Below, piece by piece: positions 13,241 through 54,600 of a DNA stretch of 64,000 nucleotides; position 1 is the stretch's first letter; every line of letters begins with the position of its first letter. The translations under genes were made by a program, and so were the position numbers. Origin of the DNA: Odontesthes bonariensis (taxonomy: Eukaryota; Chordata; Actinopteri; Atheriniformes; Atherinopsidae). Under the pieces are notes generated by a model, which was given only the letters and a program-made list of their open reading frames with translations, ran no database searches and was not told the origin of the DNA. Where the stretch lies: assembly GCF_027942865.1 (NCBI RefSeq), contig NC_134514.1, forward strand, positions 17,407,965-17,471,964, written 5' to 3'.

Positions 13241-18274
<5,034 letters not shown>

Positions 18275-24608: not shown

Positions 24609-24999
24609 CGGTTAGATTTTCATTTTAGTTATCTTGTCCCATTACATTGGAAAATAGTCTTATTGTTCCTTGAATAAAGGAGAAAAGATTTTTTTGGCTT
24701 TATTAAGATTCCCAGAAAGTGCAACTTATTGAAAATGTAAGGAAACTGTGGAGAGGCTATATTCAGTTTGGTGACCAAGCCAAAGCTAAAAGTGATGCAG
24801 CGATCCTGCACATGATGAATAAGTTTCCAATCCCAAAATCTGGAAAACCATATGGATTTAAAAGGAAAAAAATAAAAAAGATCGATCAACCTACAACCTT
24901 CCACCAGCAAAGGAAGTAAAGTTTTTAAAGTTAATGCAGACAGTTCCTACAAGTGCTCCAACTTCAGTTCACCATTTTACTTGCATTCCCTCTGTTATG

Positions 25000-42600: not shown

Positions 42601-45600
42601 TGCAAAGTTGTTCATATAAAAATATATGCTAGAAGTATGTCTGAAAATAAACTTAGGCACTGCTGACTAAACCAGATTCTTGCTTTCAGCAATGACCTAA
42701 AATAAATGTTTTGTTTATTTTAAATGTTGTTATTTTTGTTCATGTCTGTTCACTTGGTTCATTTCTAAAAACTGCAAACTTCCATTGCCACACATTCCCA
42801 ATGAAAACGATGAGCATTTTTTGGTGGTTTCAATAACGATCTTTGCTTTGTTTTTTAATGCTATAAAAAAAAGATTTATAACCATGTTTGAAAGAGCTTT
42901 AAAGCCTGAATTGTTGTCTGGCGCATTGGCTAACTAGCTTCCTGGCTAGTGGCACACAGCTGTTGTATTTCATCACTCCTGAACTTCAATGGGTGCCCAC
43001 AGTGACTCAGCTGGGAGTTAAGAGAGAGACACTGAGGCAGACACAGGCGTAAGACTGTGAATCCCTCATGGCCTGGTATTACAGACGAATGTTAAGTAGC
43101 TAGCAACCCCAGACGGGCTCAGCTACGACTGAGAGCCCTCGCCAGGCTTCCAGCTATCTTTATTCTGTTAATGCCTCCACACACAGAAAAGCAGTGTGTT
43201 CGTTCAGCCTTTTGTTGGCTTACATCTCAGCATCCCTTTTCTGAAAGGAAAAAAGAGGGCTAATTTAATTAGCTGGGAGGAACCAGTAGATGGAAGAGTC
43301 TAGCAGTGCCAATGGCTTTACTCCAGTAAGAATGCACACACACACACACATATGCACACACAGTAACAACCCCCATCTAGTGCTTGCCAACCATTACAGT
43401 AGAATATCCAGCAGTGATTCTTTCTTTACAGAAAGATCCAGGAGTTTCACCTCCCCCTCTTCCTTTTCTTCCCTCCTATACCTCTTCCCCTCTTGAAACT
43501 CATCTCCAAATGTGCACATGCATACAGAACACATATTAGTATTTCTGCCTGACTGTGTCTGATTCATTTATTTGTGTGTGTGTGTTTTTCTTGTATTTAT
43601 GTGTGGCTGCATTTACACTTGAGTGCGCCCATGTGTGAGCATGATTATATGAATTATGTATCAGCGGATGGGGGTGTTCCAACCTTTGGCTGCAGCATGT
43701 ATACTGAGTTAATAAGCTGGTCCCATATCTGCAGCTTTATAATAAATGCATGTGAATGACATCTGGTGCACCCCTTTGACAGACTTACCTGGCTATATGG
43801 CGTTTTCCGAGGAACCTGAAGTGCTGAAGACAAAGCCTGAGGGGGAAAAGGATTTATAAAAAACATCTTGTGAAGAAGTTGCCTTGTTTTTGTGCATTTT
43901 TCTAAAATAAGAACACAGGCTTAATAGAGAGCATGAGATCAAACTGAATAACACCAGAACACTCTAGATGCTGAGACAAACAGGAAGCATAGAAAGTTAA
44001 TTTGAAGCACTCCTCAGTGGATAGGGCGCTCCAAGTAGAATTACAGTCTGTTTTTCTTCTCTTTCTCTTGCTGTGTCATTATTTTCATCTGTTCCCTTCT
44101 GGCCATGCTCCATTTTCTTCTTATTTGCCTGTTCCCTTGTTGAGCTGCTTCATTTTTTCCCATCTGTCTGCAGGCTACTACGAATCAGTCTGACAGGCAA
44201 TGCTATTTTAACAAACAGAAATAAGAGCTCTTACTCCAGGATGTTAAAGAAGTCTGAGATCTCCTGGTGAATGGCCCGGTGCCAGTAGGATACTAACACA
44301 TCTGGAAACAGATAACAAAAGTGCTAAAATCACATACCACAGCAACACTAAGAAGCTTTTTAAAGAGTCAACATGTCATGTGTTGTACACACTATATGTA
44401 TGTGTGTACAACACACATCCATAACTAAATTTCCAACACAATTGGACAGGGTTCTGATTTGGTCCTATGGAATCATGTATACATTGTCTCAGTAAAATGT
44501 TTATTTTTTTACCTTCAGATATGGTTTTCATGATGTGCAAAAAGCACATGAGAAGACTGCGGGTCTCTGCCTGGTCTAGCTTGTCACAACGAGACCCATA
44601 TCCGATCAGGGACTGGGGCCGGGCAAACTGAGCACAAAGATTTAGACAGAAAAGCAGTCAAGGATAAACTTTCAGGGCTGCGGGTATCATTGTGGACACT
44701 GACGTCATGCCTTCAGTATTTGTTCATGGGAATTTAGAGGATTTCACCAGCCTTGAACTAAAGTGACACTTAAGAGGGTCTTTTTTTTTTTTTTTTAATT
44801 TTAACAGTATAAGCTGATTGCAGCATTTGTAGATAACATTTTACAACTTTTAGACCAACAATTGCAGTCTTATATCACAAAGAAACTGTGAACTTGTTGA
44901 CTGAAGAAGGAAACTTAGTGAATGGATCCAGAAGTCTGGCAGCAAAATAACGTTAAGTGGATGGAAGTTTCAGTATTTTCCAGCCAAAATTTTATTCCAT
45001 ACTAAGGAGGGAATGTTTGGAAATATATTTTATTGCTCATAAGTTTTAATGTTGGAAAACAACATTTCCAGGAAATATGGTAAGACAGGTAATTATTTGC
45101 ATGAAATATGAGAAATGTAGGTAATATAAAAGTTTTTGAAAGCTGTCAAGAAGTGGTGGTCATGTAGGTTGCTGGAGGTACTGATGACATTGATATTTTT
45201 TTAGGCAATGTTCTACTTTTATTACATGGTATCATTAAAAATGTATAATATGCTGAAAGTTACCAGCTAGAATTGAACATTGCTGTGGATTAGGTGAAAA
45301 TACAGCAAAGTCGGTGTTGGAGCAGCGTGTTCAGTCCTTTTGTCCACCATCAGCAGTCTAAAATTGGCCTTGTTTCTGCATATTCCTCTTTCATAAACCA
45401 ATAAATAGTATTGATATTTCTAAGATAAACAGCTCATGATGAAAAAGAAGCAGAGTATTTAACATATAAAGATTTAAGCTCCATCGACAGATGTGCTCGC
45501 TGCCCCATACATCATGCGGGGTGTGTCTTTCACCTTCTCACATCCATCCATCTTCTCACTGTTCCTGTCACTGTTGCTAGGGTTGGAGTCCACACTGATC

Positions 45601-48600
45601 AGAGAACCTCGAGAGTCCGCCTGGTTACCCGTAGCAACCGCCAAGGATGAGAAAACTGTTGCAGAGGGGGAAGGGCGTCGGCCTCATTGTCCTGATTTTA
45701 CACCTTTGTACAGTATACTGCGTCACAAAATAGACAAACATATATCACACAGTGCTACCTGTAATGGAGTTGAGCACTTCTTTGGAAAAGGAGGCATCAA
45801 CAGAGTTGGCATGGCGAGGAACAGGAATCACTCCTCCTGCCATCCCCCCTCCCACACTGACGTCATCTCGAGAGCCCTGTGAGGGGTGCAGGGTAGAAAA
45901 GAGTAGGTGAGGAAATGCTTTTTTGTTCGGAGTATTTTATTTTAAAGTCTACCAGTTTCATTATTCATAAAGTTTGATTGAAAGCAGCTACGGTGCTGCA
46001 CAAAAATGTTCACCATGGCATTATGGTTCAGATGAGAGGCTGCAGGCCCCAAAAACCTAACAACTAAAAATAAGACCCCTTGCTTTGAAAAAAAATATCC
46101 AGCAGGTAAAATAGGAAAGAAAAAAAATCATAACAGATGTACACTGCATACTCTTATTAAGGTTTGCGTTTTTCGGCCAACATAAATTATTGTCAAGTTG
46201 AGTTTAGCTCAACTGTGTCAAACTGTGGTGCAATTCACCAGGTAAAATACATGTAACAATCAAAAATGAAAGCTGGAACTTTCTGTTCAGTAATGTGGTT
46301 AAAAACGCTACAAATTAGGAGGCGAGTTGAATCAAAAGACTTTTCATGGTATTATTGGAGCAAAAAAACTGAACACCTGTGAGAGTGGGAGTTTTTGGAA
46401 AAAAGTCACACGAATGAAGTGTATTGATAGATTTGAAGCTTTACAAGGTGCAAACTCAATACAACAGTTACAACCCCTTGAGTTCTTAAAATCGACCAAG
46501 TACAAATCCTACTCTACAAATCGTAAACTGAGAAATGTATTCACTTTGCTACCGTTGCTGCTGTAAATATGCACATTTATGCATGTGTGAAACATCCTCT
46601 TCAAATAATGTGAAGTTAAGGACAAATCTGCACATCATTATGTGAATTCAGTTACACGACTGTAGAGCAATAGATCTTCCACAGTAATAGGTTATTTGTC
46701 GTTTTGCTCCAATAATACCTTATATCAACCACATAGTACACGGAAGGGCAGCCATTTTTTCTTCCTTCTTGACTCTTACCTGGTCACTAGAAGTGAAGTA
46801 GATGGGGAAGAGGTCCCTGAGGAAGAATCGAGGCATGTTGTCAAGGATCAAGCCATACAGAGGCAGGTAGAGAGATGCAATTCTTGCCTGCTTCTCCTGA
46901 AAAAGCATCAAGTTTGACAGATATCACATAAAGCTCATGAGAGACTTCTGCAGATTCACTTTCTTGGAAATCAACTAATCTATTAGCTTAAAAAATAAAA
47001 AGTACAAACATAAGTTGACAAAAAAGTTTGCACGTTGTTTCTCTCAGGTATTCTCTAGTCATAAACGTAGTCCACTACCACTTAAGGAATAGTAGTAGTA
47101 TTGGATCGTTACGGAACAGCTATTGAACATTCCTGACTTGTACTAATGTGAAAAAACATTGTGGGCTTTCAGAAAAACTTCTCTGTTTTACTATTTTCCA
47201 TTTTATTCCCAATGACACATTTGGTTTTGACTCAGACCCAGTCTGGGCCTTGACTACAGTCCTGCCATTGTGTTGTGTTTGGCAGCATTAAACAGAGGGC
47301 AGATTACTAGCTTGATCTGATCTAGATACTTCCCAGCATTCATTAAGATATCCACAACGCTGTTTGCAGCTGCTAAGAAAAATCACATGTCAGTGTGTGT
47401 GTGTTAGTATGTATGAGTCACAGTGGAAAAACTTCTGCTGTGTGCACGAGTCATTTTCATGCCTTTTGGTTTTCTCCCAGATAAACATGTCTACCTTGGT
47501 GGCATATCGTGCATCCAGTGAATGTTTGGCCATCAGAGTCTTCAGGGTGGCCAAGGCTAAATGTCTCAGGTCCTGTTCATCCTGGAGAGCCAGTCCCAGC
47601 TCCCGTAGCAACAGGCCCGTCAGGAAGTGTTTCCTGCAGAACTCTCCAGTCAGGTTGTATTCAGGCACTGACACTAAGCCGAGACGACAAATGGAAATTA
47701 ACAGAGCTGCACACAATTTAGATAAAGCTCTTGACAATATTTGCTTTTCATCACAGAGTTCATCCATTTCTAAACAGAAATCTGGTCACAGTGGACAAAT
47801 AATGCCACATGCAGACAAGCACACACTCTGTAGCACATACAACCGTACAAATGAATGGGTGAACATATTTACCATGAGTGCTTTGTGGCTCAGGGGATGC
47901 ATGATCTGACATGGACAAATTAAATTAAAAAAGAATGGCAGAAGGTGAAAGAGAGATTGACAGAGAGTTAATAAAAGGATGAGTGTGAGCTAATCGATGA
48001 ATGGTAGTTACCACATGAACACTGGTGGCACTGGGCTACAGGCAGGGTGTGACTTGGGCCCTTACCTGTGATGCGAGCAGAAGGTAAGGGCAGGCTGAGA
48101 GGAATGTAGTGCTCGTGGTTACACACCTCTCTCAGGAACTCAAATTTCAGCTCACACAGGACCTATCAGTCACACAAAAAACATTATTCCATTGTCAAGT
48201 ATGCATGTCATTGTTTAGTCGCAAACATCACACGATTGCTCCACTTTTAATATTGACTTTTCCTTTCTTTTGTTACCTTGCTGTCAGTAGCAGTAATCAT
48301 GTTGATGTAGTTGCTTATCAGTTTGAATGTAAAGCCCCTGTCCATCAGCGTAAAGCAGCGCTGCAAAGAGACAGAGAATTAGAGATCCAACTCCGAATAA
48401 GATAAGAGTGAGAGATAGGCTGCTTAACACAGATAGAGTTATCAATGGTTAACAGTTTTTATCTGTAAACGGTTTATACATATTGTTTTGATCCCTCTAA
48501 AAGCAAAATGCCGAAACACAGTGCTGCATGTTTTCCTTCGCATGAGCTCAACATGGCCCCCACACAGTCAGTATATAGTCTTTCTGAAAATGATTGATTT

Positions 48601-51600
48601 AACATAATGCAGATCCATGATACAATTTCTTAAGATACATCTCGCACCTTGACAAAAGCTGCCACAGCTAAGTTGGCACTGCGTGTCTCTTCACCCAGTT
48701 CTTTGTACTTCCAAAAGATATGTTCAGACAAGGTCTCCACCAAGGTCTCCACGCGGCTCAGATAGGATGAGGGGAAACGCTGCGGCCTCAGAAGCTATAG
48801 GGGAGTGTAAAACAGTCATTTACCATGTCCCAGGAAAGAGTGGAGGTGAGGGGTTGCAAAGCAAAGTGTGAGACCTTACCTTTACCTTGTCAGAGTCCAT
48901 CAAATGCTGAGCCATTGACTTGACGATAAGCTCAAAGAAGAACCAGGAGAACTGAAAGCAGGAGAGGCAAAAACATGCCCAACATTTAGTTGAGACTGAG
49001 AATCATCCGTATTCTCTATCTAAGCCTTTGAGACATTATAACTTTGGATGGATAATAATTTCCCATTTTACAATCAATAATCTGATGAGTGGGTAGACTA
49101 ACCTTGAGGACATTTCTGACTGCTGCCTGCTCATTACTCTTCAGGTCAAAGGTCATCCCCTTAGACAGCTCTTCATGGACTGTCCTGAAGCCACAGGCCT
49201 CCGACTTGAACACATACTACAAACACAGAGAAAAGAAATAAGAAGTAGCAATTTATTTCAGTCTGACTGAAGATGACAGAGGAAACGCAATGTTGTGAAT
49301 GCGTGTGTCGTAGATAATGGATAGGAATATCTAAAAAAAAAAATTTTTAAATCGATTTAATACCTGTCGTATGAAATGGTAAATGAATGAAAAATAAAAA
49401 GTGATTAACGTTCTATTCAATACCGATTCATAGCCAAGATGTTTTTTTGTGTTTCCTGTTAGAAAACATATTTCACTAAATCTAAATGTTACTTTACATT
49501 ACAAAAAAGGAGCCATTGCCTTTTAATATATAAAATGTGTGTTTTTAAACAGAAAACACTTAACATATATCATTATTATTGTTGCTTAAAGCTGCAGTCT
49601 GCAACTCTTTTTCAAGCATAATGCCTGGAACTGTCCGGGGATTCTGAAAGTAGTACATTAAATACCCCAATACAAAAAAAAAAGAGTTCTCTAGGTCCCC
49701 TATATGTCCCGCTAGGTCCCTCCAAAGCCAGCAGGTTTGTTTACAAAATTGCAGACCGGACCGGTAAAAGGTAACCAATCAGGTTTACGAGCTGGGCTCT
49801 GCTGCCTGTCAATCACCGATTGTGCACGCGCGATACAAGGTAGGCTCGTCCCCACGCTTATTTATCTAGACTATTGAACTTCATTACAGGCTAGTCTACT
49901 TACTGTGTCTTCCATGATCGCAAATGACAGGTGAGTTGATGAATGAGGAGTCGTGTAGGCGCATCTGGCGTGCACGTCTACGTGCACGAGTTCTCATGTG
50001 TTTTGAAGGGGCGGGACAGGAAGTTGAATAACTTTTTATTTTTCGGTTAAAAAATAAGCATTTCTTGCATTTTGCGACTACGTAGGTCACCGTTTTCAAC
50101 TTCAAGCGTTCTGATAGATCATGTAAACTCTTAAAATGCCAAAAAGTAGGACTTTACGTATGACAACAACAAATCTTGCAGACTGCAGCTTTAAGCAACG
50201 TTCCTTTTGCTTTTGTTGTCAGTTTTTCATTATTGTAATTATCATTATTTTTTAATTTCCCCCATTGGGGGATGAATAAAGTATTTTTCTATTCTATTTC
50301 TATTCTATTATATACAACAGTGTATTTTGATTATTTTTAAGTGAAAGGACTTTTAGAAAATGTAAAAAAATGGATCAAGTTACAACAAACAAAACAAAGA
50401 GCTTCAACATGATTGTGAATAAAGTTCCTTCATACAACTCAATTCAAGCTAGAATGTTTATACAGACTCAAAATGCTTCGACTCACAAACTGGATACCAC
50501 TAGTACAGAACATCATGCCAATCTGTTACTATGGCAACCTTGGTTTCATTAGCTGTGCTGGTCCTCTCCTCTTACTCCTCTTCCCTCCCACCACTCCTGT
50601 CTGCTGTTGCCTCTCCAGACTCTGCAGTTTCCTGCTTTGTGGTCACAGTGAAACAGGTCTTGTGGTTTCTCCTCCTCTTGTCACTAATTCTCTCACTGAT
50701 TTGCCCCCCTAAATAAACATGCCTTGTGTTTCTGATTAAGCGGCTCAAATGTCCTACTTTGCCTCCCTCTCAATCAACCTTTCTTCGCCCTCTTCTTTTT
50801 CGCTTTCCTTTTCGATGTGTGTTTGTGTGTTTGCACAGTGTTCTGGGCACGTGGCCCTGGCCAAACACACGCATAAGTAAACATACAAACACATAAAGCT
50901 CCCTTCTGCTTCTTTTTTCACCCTTCCACATATTCAATTGCCTGTGTTGGATTTCCACTCCACTTTGAAACAACAGCTTTGTCAATCATTGTGTGATCTT
51001 CACACATAACTGTCTGCCACAGTATACCTTGATATAGGAGTGCAGGTAGTGATCCAGATTTTCTTCATGGCACTTGCCAACAATGTGGACCAACACTCTG
51101 CAGGATGACAACAACAACAATGGTTTTATCTGTTACAGCTTTCATGAATAAATTATGGTTCACAAGAATCTGTCAAAAACATTCAATGTCTTTGCTTCTC
51201 TTCAACACCTGGAGGATTTTTTAATCATGAATCATGTTCCATTTAAAAGGGAGGAAGAAAAACACTGACTTTTAAACCGTGTGCTTTTCTTGCTGCATGC
51301 TTTCTCACATCTACTGAGCCTCATCAGAAAGACTAATGTGGGTTAGGGATACTTGCAAGACCACTGCCTACCTGGTGGTGGCAGTAGTCACCTCATCGTC
51401 ATCATTCTGAGTAAGGACCTTGAACAGCTGGTTGAAAAGCACTGGCAGAAACCGTACAATCACTGGGATTCTCTCCATGCTGAGAAGACCCTAGAGAAGA
51501 GTGGGGAAAAAAAAGTTGAAAGGAGGAGAGGATTGAAAGTGAAAAGCGTGAAAAACAAAAAATGCAAAAAGAGACTGAAAAAGGTCTGACATGGTGTTAC

Positions 51601-54600
51601 TCTCATTAGACATGAAGCTTTGGTTGCTAAGGTTTTAGTTTCAGTCCCAGTTGGTGATTATTGAGGAAATTCAAACACTTTTCTCTGACCTTCAGGCAGT
51701 TGAGGAAGTTGGAGGTAGGAGGCTGAGAGAGGTCCAGCTCTCTCTTCTGGCACTGCTGGAAGAATCGGTTCAGGTGGGGGTCCTGGCACAGACAGAGGAA
51801 TTCATGAAAATCAGCAGCCGGCAGCTGTACTATTACTTAGTGAACTTGCTCCTTTTTTTAGTTTGACTTTTTAAGACAGTTAAGGGTCAAATTTGAACAT
51901 ATTATCATACAACTATGTAATTGAGCAGTTCAGTATTAACCTTATCTTAAGTCCCCGTAATTTACTGTACAACTTTGAAAACAACAGAAAATAACCAAAT
52001 TTAATTAGTTGGCGTCTTGGGCAGATAATTGTGCTACTCTGGCTTATACATGATATCTATTCAGATTCCTTGTGCTGATGATAAAAAAGGCATATGTAAT
52101 GATGACTCTTTAAAAAGCTTCTTAGAGCTGCTGCGGTGTGTGATGTTAGCACTTTTGTTATCTGTTTCCAGATGTGTTAGGATCCTACTGGCACCGGTCC
52201 ACAAAAAAGGCTTTCTAGCAGAAGTTTCTTTTTATGAAATAAAATCTCTTTTTTAAAGATATCATCTGTCATTTGGGGTCATCATTCACACATTGTCTGT
52301 GACATATGCTTATTGCATTATAACATGTAACTAAAATGAGTTCATTTAATTGATCATTTTCTTTTGCATGTTTAACTTGTTTGTAAAATAATACTATGTT
52401 TTCATGTGTTTTGATCCAATTTAAACAGAAAACTAAACAGAAACAGTCCATTTCCTTTTCTTTTTTTTTGTCTATGTGCAACACAACACCAGAAGAGGTA
52501 TCTCTACACTTTCCACTAATGCAAAATGTGCATCTTGGACTCACACTGCGTTGTTTTGCATGGATAAGCACTCTGGGTAATTTGTTTAGTGTTGCCTAAT
52601 GGTCATTTTAGGCCCATTGTACTGTTACACTCAAGCAGGCGCCATTCATTCTAATTCTGCAGGAGAATGTGGGGGCGATACCAAGACAAAAATGACTGTC
52701 AATTTCACTTGCTCCTTTGAGATTAAGAACTTGACTGGATGTGCTATCATTCTGGCTCACTTTACAATAATGTACACTGGTGGCTGAGACAGCAATTAGA
52801 AAGCCAGCAGTCCACCCATTTTCGAAATGACTCCAGAATTTTCCAGAGATATGTGGGACGGTAGTTTCTCCCAGAGTTTACTGGTCAAAAAACAGGCATA
52901 CTGTAAATATACCACCAAACAAAAAAAAATACCAAGAATCAACTAGAAACAAAGATGATAGTCTTACCTGAGTGTACACTGTTGAGACGACATTGGAGGA
53001 CACTTTAAAGATCGCTTTTCCTCCATCGACCCATTTTACATCGGCTGCATTCTGTAAAAAGTGTTTCAGAATCAGCCTGAATCTGAACACTGGAAAAACC
53101 CAAACACTATACGCTGCAATGCAGCACGTCAAAGTTTTTACCTCACAGCTATAATTTCCATTTTATAATCCTTTTTCACTTCCATTTTCTTCCTCACTCT
53201 CACCTTGGTGTTGCTGGCTTCCTTGATGGCCAAGTATCCCGGGGGCAGATTGCAGGAGACAGGGATGTTGAACTCCTGAGATGACACACGGCCTTCTTTG
53301 AGAAGAGGCAGCCAAGAATACCCCACTAAAAAAAAAATGGAAATGTTAAAAAAGTAAAAGGAATACTTAACAGTGGGAAAAAACAATCTCCACATAATCA
53401 GGCTCAAAATCTACCACCATCTCACCTGGAGTCTCAAGTGTCTCTTTCCTTTTTGAATTGGTCTTAGCATTGATGTCACAGGTGACGTGGTAAAAAGAGA
53501 AAAGCAGATGGTGCTTTTCATGAAGCTGGGTGGGAAGCTCAATCTTCACCTGAGGACACAAAAATAATTTTTGTACAGTACTGTGTCTTATTTAGCAAAT
53601 CATGAGAAAACATTAGCCAGTTCAAGATTCTTTTTATTTCTATTTAATAAGTTCATAAATCCCTTTTCTTTTCCTCACCTCATCGTAGAAGTCAGGGTTC
53701 TGAGAGTGATGGAGGACTGTGGAACAGGCTGCAGTGGTGAAGACTGGTCCTCCAGGCTTGCCGTAGATACACTACAAAAATGGAAAATTTCATTACATAG
53801 AGAGCTCAACTGGACAGAAAGTGAGTCCCATAAAGCTAATATATGTCCTCTGGGCATTTAAAAAGAAAAATAATGGCCCACCTTTAGGGGTTTGGCAACT
53901 TCTTCGTCTGAGCTGCGGAACTCCACATACACGGCAATGTTACGAGCCTGTGAACAAGAGGACCATTGTAACATTAATGAGTGAAAACAAAAGGAAAAAA
54001 AAAAACTACCAATATATAAAAACTGTTCAATAAAAGGACACGAAGAATGTAAAAAAAAAAAAGAAAATAATTTCACAATTGACACATGAACATGTTACTC
54101 GCCTTCGCAAAGCTTTTCTGACTGTCATACTTGAGGTGTTTAGGGTACACATAGATGTGGTTTCTGTAGACACGGTGTGGCTGGGTGAACTTGGTGGTGT
54201 CTTGGACAAACTCCTCCACCTCCACCATAGGCTGGTGTTTGCTCAGGTCCTCAAAGGGCTTCACTGGAACATATGAGGATGTCACGCAGTCTGAAAGAGA
54301 AAGTTTCATGTCAGAGCAGAAAAAGGAAGGAGGCAGACAGAGGAGATATTTTGGCTTGACAACAGACATACTAGGATGCTCCATTGGAACATAGTCCATT
54401 GCGATGTCTATTGTCCCTGGCACAGACTGTAGTTTGCTGGTCTTCTCAGCCCTGCAAAGGAAAAATTTGGTTTAAAATATTGTAAAGAATGTGTCTCTAA
54501 TCTTTGCCATCCTTTCCGGTGCAGGCCATTTTACCTCCTGTACTCAGTCACCAACTTTATGAGATCATCTGTGGAAATCTTGTTACTCTCCTGTTTGAAA

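Follow-up and report, generated by a model that had tools for sequence, protein, structure and literature searches.

An inverted copy of a splice-acceptor segment in an intron of dock10 of Odontesthes bonariensis, probably derived by local repair-mediated duplication

One intron of dock10 in the fish Odontesthes bonariensis contains a short segment that, in the transcript, is complementary to the 3' splice site of a second dock10 intron. This raises two questions, namely how the second copy came to be there and whether it has any consequence for the gene. The DNA analyzed, referred to below as the window, is a stretch of 64,000 nucleotides (assembly GCF_027942865.1, contig NC_134514.1, positions 17,407,965 to 17,471,964); coordinates are those of the window unless otherwise indicated, and the features are collected in Table 1. 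We propose that the copy is a local repair-mediated duplication, with a probability of roughly two in three, the repair and the subsequent drift being what we infer from the two sequences and their surroundings.

Self-BLAST of the window (+1/-1 scoring, word size 7, E value at most 1e-3) returned three off-diagonal pairs, two of them direct and weak. The sole inverted pair (E value 1.9e-31, which rules out chance similarity) joins the two dock10 segments, whose arms lie 7709 bp apart. Stricter scoring gives a single ungapped block of 111 bp, 44272–44382 against 52201–52091, in which 100 of the 111 positions are identical and 11 differ. An earlier note on this DNA had described an inverted match of about 101 bp (44272–44372 and 52101–52201) with about 8 differences, made up of 71 nt of intronic and 30 nt of exonic sequence. 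Both alignments bear out this match and the composition is as claimed, the shorter block containing exactly 8 differences and the outermost 10 bp of the true block contributing three more. Lax scoring extends the pair to 44219 through gapped, poor sequence (79% identity over 168 columns), which was taken as noise.

When the source arm was searched against the 945-Mb genome (187 contigs), two places were found, the source and the copy, and a query consisting of the copy with its surroundings (651 bp) returned the identical two places. Within the reach of this search, which skips very common words, a dispersed repeat or the cargo of a transposon is rejected. The earlier note had asked whether the 101 bp occurs at many genomic sites; with just two places, in a search that skips very common words, the pair is a local duplication and no repeat.

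The copy is bounded on both sides by perfect 9-bp direct repeats, AAAAAAGGC, which become 11 bp long if one mismatch is allowed, whereas at the ends of the source arm the longest such match is 3 bp. Because the repeat flanks the copy and is absent at the source, the 52-kb site is the recipient of the insert, a conclusion independent of the coding argument given below; the same arrangement points to an insertion at a staggered break, templated from nearby. When random 111-bp segments are given the same 3-base slack as the copy, a flanking repeat of at least 9 bp occurs in 9 of 20,000. Beside runs of six adenines (A6) the frequency is 1 of 332 places, the copy site itself being among the 332.

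Under the proposed mechanism, a staggered double-strand break, or a set of offset nicks, would have occurred in the dock10 intron near 52091 and been repaired by copying about 110 bp, in inverted orientation, from the acceptor region 7.7 kb away. Fill-in of the overhangs would have left the 9-bp direct repeat on each side, after which the copy would have drifted freely and the source exon would have been kept under coding constraint. The local donor, the short length, the single copy, the repeat resembling a target-site duplication (TSD) and the lack of added poly(A) outside that repeat would all fit repair-mediated duplication. Of the origin suggested in the earlier note, the local duplication stands; with the 9-bp repeats at the copy, repair of a staggered break (or, less likely, reverse transcription of pre-mRNA) is a better fit than unspecified template switching. 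In Pace et al. 2009 (PMC2671141), this process in vertebrate genomes is represented by 824 proximal human cases with a median of 147 bp, and by 80 cases in zebrafish. A TSD was present at 6 of 39 inspected proximal breakpoints, four donors were partial exon/intron segments, and one human exon (of ACSBG2) had been inserted, in inverted orientation, into an intron of the gene to which it belongs.

Several points weigh against this origin. The donor, at 7709 bp, lies beyond the 5 kb used by Pace et al., a cut-off that the authors themselves call ad hoc and beyond which they count 58 same-chromosome cases. A single unmatched base (52202), possibly filler, stands between the copy and the right repeat. 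The right repeat starts with A6 directly after the insert, which would also suit reverse transcription. Moreover, a laxer screen yielded nine low-multiplicity pairs, i.e., 18 arms, and a 9-bp flanking repeat was present on two arms, the first being the dock10 copy and the second belonging to an unrelated direct pair nearby with 77% identity. Since the arm of an unrelated pair carries one too, a 9-bp flanking repeat alone is no proof, and as a mark of insertion it is strong, yet not unique. The insert, at 111 bp with one other genomic place, agrees with the size (at least 50 bp) and copy number used for repair-mediated duplications (PMC2671141). In view of the donor distance the strict class label is not claimed; what we claim is a resemblance in mechanism.

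The unrelated direct pair is 79 bp long, its arms lie 10 kb apart (C14 upstream-block positions 14656–14734 and 24802–24879), and it may represent an old SINE or a further local copy.

An RNA-templated insertion is the next candidate, and an unlikely one. A LINE-type enzyme would have nicked the DNA at GCCTTTTTT/A, and its reverse transcription of part of an unspliced dock10 pre-mRNA would have produced a retrocopy that has no tail and is enclosed in a 9-bp TSD. The repeat indeed starts with A6, preceded by T, which gives TTTT/A on the opposite strand, and the RNA-sense strand of the insert is on the side that the model requires. Published tailless copies were filtered by TSDs of 8–35 nt together with 3' truncation (PMC5322556), and class 1 templated sequence insertion polymorphisms (TSIPs) are marked by TTTT/A sites and TSDs (PMC5110952). 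Of the features of that class, a TSD of at least 5 bp at TTTT/A was found here, AAAAAAGGC occurring twice with a T before the left A6, but a non-templated poly(A) of 10–40 nt with a poly(A) signal was not, a single base separating the copy from the right repeat. The A6 run at the right junction belongs to the repeat, and no poly(A) is found beyond it. In PMC2671141, a poly(A/T) tract accompanied 0 of the 39 proximal insertions, as opposed to 17 of the 29 other insertions. The donor, 7.7 kb off in the same gene, is an improbable choice for an RNA free to insert anywhere, and tailless copies are tied to the mammalian L1 machinery, PMC5322556 reporting none in platypus or chicken and containing no mention of fish. 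The proximity of the donor and the absence of a distinct tail place this explanation second.

Template switching during replication, by fork stalling or microhomology-mediated break-induced replication, is slightly less likely again. Synthesis would have jumped to a template on the opposite strand at a distance of 7.7 kb, no staggered break being involved, and the 9-bp repeat would be a by-product or due to chance. Such switching is a known maker of reverse-complement copies (PMC8794818, PMC7954356), and it would account for the inverted orientation and the local donor. However, it does not predict a 9-bp flanking repeat, just one or two bases are common to both sides at the junctions, and the short-range events described in great apes copied a median of 12 nt and a maximum of 128 (PMC7954356).

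Whether the copy affects the gene depends on what the source arm covers. The gene is long, lies on the minus strand, and its exons were chained with a home-made ab initio script using splice-site weights and codon usage, so that the exon structure is a model without transcript support. The name dock10, given in the earlier note, is upheld by two exons of the DHR2 region, for which solved DOCK10 is the best match (E values 6.2e-31 and 1.4e-29); DOCK6 and DOCK9 were weaker for both exons, and DOCK7 and DOCK8 were weaker for the latter. Among five exons scanned against Pfam, DHR-2 lobe A was found with 45.1 bits (cut-off 26); the remaining matches were below their cut-offs and the copied exon had no Pfam match or family. 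Nor did solved full-length DOCK6 align to the 67-nt exon. This exon (44301–44235) is preceded by CTGTTTCCAG and followed by GTAAG; its AG and GTAAG borders, together with the exon model, confirm the length of 67 nt and the frame-shifting effect of its loss that had been predicted, the shift following from the length. By the phases of the model, a junction between the exon that ends at 52968 and the one that starts at 44301 would likewise shift the frame. The intron that holds the copy is upstream of the source intron, and the model agrees with the earlier count of 13 exons between the arms, i.e., from the 51783–52967 intron to the 67-nt exon.

Of the differences between the arms, 9 lie among the 81 intronic positions and 2 among the 30 exonic ones (Jukes–Cantor distances 0.12 and 0.07). 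If the source exon were frozen and everything else drifted, 1.7 exonic differences would be expected, and 2 were observed; free drift of both arms is also compatible with this number (P=0.34). The pattern would be that of a copy drifting freely while the source exon is conserved, with the little power that 11 differences afford, and the same intron/exon split, at the same low power, gave no sign of selection on pairing. At the two exonic sites the residues encoded by the source are V and A, in place of which a translated copy would have G and S. The paralogous exons on C17, C16 and C24, read by eye, have F, F and M at the first residue and A, A and I at the second, the C24 match being weak (E value 1.6). 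As the source residues resemble those of the paralogues, the coding evidence agrees with the 52-kb place as recipient.

The paralogues were found by searching the genome. The 23-residue exon query matched dock10 (E value 3.2e-9) and, weakly, C17 (E value 5.72, 43% identity), and the neighboring exon matched, besides dock10, C17 (E value 3.8e-7), C16 (E value 7.4e-6), C24 (E value 1.6) and C13 (E value 8.33). C13 was dropped because of its weak match, and the other three were retained, since inspection of their DNA by eye showed the second exon that matches. The three DOCK-like loci, C17:20864530-20864777, C16:15991700-15992800 and C24:27445500-27446550, contain an exon pair corresponding to dock10 44627–44513 and 44301–44235, and are useful as outgroups for the 67-nt exon. 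Neutral substitution rates would place the insertion, as a guess, on the order of ten million years ago.

The claim of the earlier note that the two arms can form a duplex of about 100 bp over the splice acceptor proved feasible by folding. Folded alone, the two transcript arms are predicted to form 100 pairs at -166.5 kcal/mol, compared with a mean of -39.0 (sd 7.7, minimum -58.3) for 300 other segments from the gene region paired with that arm, overlapping ones excluded. A perfect run of 35 bp crosses the splice junction (26 nt before and 9 nt after it), and G-U pairing is still possible at 2 of the 11 differences. The arms could therefore pair as RNA by this prediction, and they lie in one pre-mRNA within 10 kb of each other, the span used for functional long-range pairing. 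In the cell, they would most likely pair seldom, having been made 7.7 kb apart, with the 1.2-kb intron of the copy removable before or soon after the second arm appears. At usual elongation rates, 7.7 kb of transcription takes minutes. An efficient duplex would be expected to harm dock10. An effect of the copy on splicing is possible, according to the predicted pairing, but given the low use of the duplex that we infer, the copy is probably a neutral passenger causing at most slight splicing noise.

It is quite improbable that the copy has been kept as a functional element, i.e., because pairing with the acceptor regulates skipping, editing or the formation of circular RNA from the 13 looped exons. 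Regulated skipping, A-to-I editing and circular RNA, all raised as possibilities in the earlier note, are so far unsupported. The predicted duplex is far more stable than both the mean and the minimum of the controls, its perfect run spans the splice junction, and pairings of this kind can matter in human genes (PMC8052449). However, the exonic and intronic differences are consistent with free drift, G-U pairs are tolerated at merely 2 of the 11 differences, and pairing would endanger an exon whose loss shifts the frame. In human genes, moreover, conserved pairings are underrepresented at splice sites with high usage and around exons that they would loop out (PMC8052449).

There is likewise only a slender chance that the repair scar has become a new cis-acting RNA switch, in which the antisense copy would pair with the acceptor of the 67-nt exon and a duplex tuned by ADAR or helicases would set how much full-length dock10 mRNA is made relative to frame-shifted or circular products. 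If so, the birth of a long-range splicing structure would be datable to one insertion. 

Under repair-mediated duplication, the locus illustrates how one repair event can set a complementary arm of 100 bp against a splice site within a single gene. In a comparison of species with and without the copy, it would serve as a natural experiment, showing either that so distant a duplex is tolerated because introns leave first or that it changes splicing.

Misassembly is unlikely in view of the 10% divergence between the copies, and it is extremely improbable that an artefact created the pair, as the copies differ at 11 of 111 sites and one copy alone has the flanking repeat.

Table 1. Features of the dock10 inverted pair in the window; exon and intron limits are those of the ab initio model.
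Feature	Position	Strand	Remarks
Source arm: final 81 nt of a dock10 intron, 3' splice site and first 30 nt of the 67-nt exon	44272..44382	-	100/111 identity to the copy
Inverted copy	52091..52201	+	The + strand reads like the dock10 transcript, so that it is antisense to the source arm in the dock10 pre-mRNA
Left direct repeat, AAAAAAGGC	52083..52091	+	TSD-like
Right direct repeat, AAAAAAGGC	52203..52211	+	TSD-like
67-nt dock10 exon, acceptor and first 30 nt copied	44235..44301	-	CAG before, GTAAG after; exon model; similar exons in three DOCK-like loci
dock10 intron holding the copy, 1185 nt	51783..52967	-	Exon model; between exons 53051-52968 and 51782-51690
Stretch between the arms, 13 modelled exons	44513..51782	-	Exon model; loop if the arms paired

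Other inverted pairs were surveyed in a sample of 264 kb, i.e., the window plus a total of 200 kb of flanking DNA, at a length of at least 80 bp, a distance within 20 kb and an E value of at most 1e-6. Four inverted pairs were found, comprising the dock10 pair, a self-matching palindrome of 0.93 kb and two pairs of lower identity (74% and 77%), the arms of which also match elsewhere in the sample; direct pairs passing the same thresholds were absent from it. The palindrome, outside the window, is 928 bp long and near-perfect (C14:17529980-17530907), is 97.8% identical to its own reverse complement and starts with TTAAAGGGGAAC; it is either an element of the foldback or MITE-like type or a fold-back produced in assembly. 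With other scoring, a perfect 24-bp inverted pair was seen in the dock10 region at 49581–49604 and 50176–50199, 572 bp apart. Downstream of dock10 in the direction of its transcript, at about 14000–18100 on the minus strand, is a gene with open segments that we take to be MRE11-like.

In titles and abstract openings, among the matches listed, there was no report of the dock10 copy; it is an instance of an already described process. The tandem-duplication model for mutually exclusive exons (PMC6071210) was judged not applicable. Like TSIPs (PMC5110952) and tailless retropseudogenes (PMC5322556), the dock10 copy is a short insert of unique sequence, accompanied by a direct repeat at a site resembling TTTT/A, but its donor is local whereas theirs are distant, and no poly(A) tract has been added. 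With short-range template switches it shares the reverse-complement copying of nearby sequence (PMC7954356, PMC8794818), but it differs from them in its length of 111 bp, its donor at 7.7 kb and its flanking repeat (PMC7954356). As in conserved long-range complementary regions (PMC8052449), two arms lie within 10 kb of one pre-mRNA with one of them over an acceptor; those regions are defined by conservation among vertebrates, whereas the dock10 pair was examined in one genome. Compared with the repair-mediated duplications (PMC2671141), whose detection needs a transposon at the site of insertion, the dock10 copy differs in that its site of insertion is no transposon. In other respects the resemblance to these duplications includes a single extra copy, a size of about 100 bp, a donor in the same gene, a TSD-like repeat as in some of theirs, a partial exon/intron donor, and an exon inverted within its own gene.

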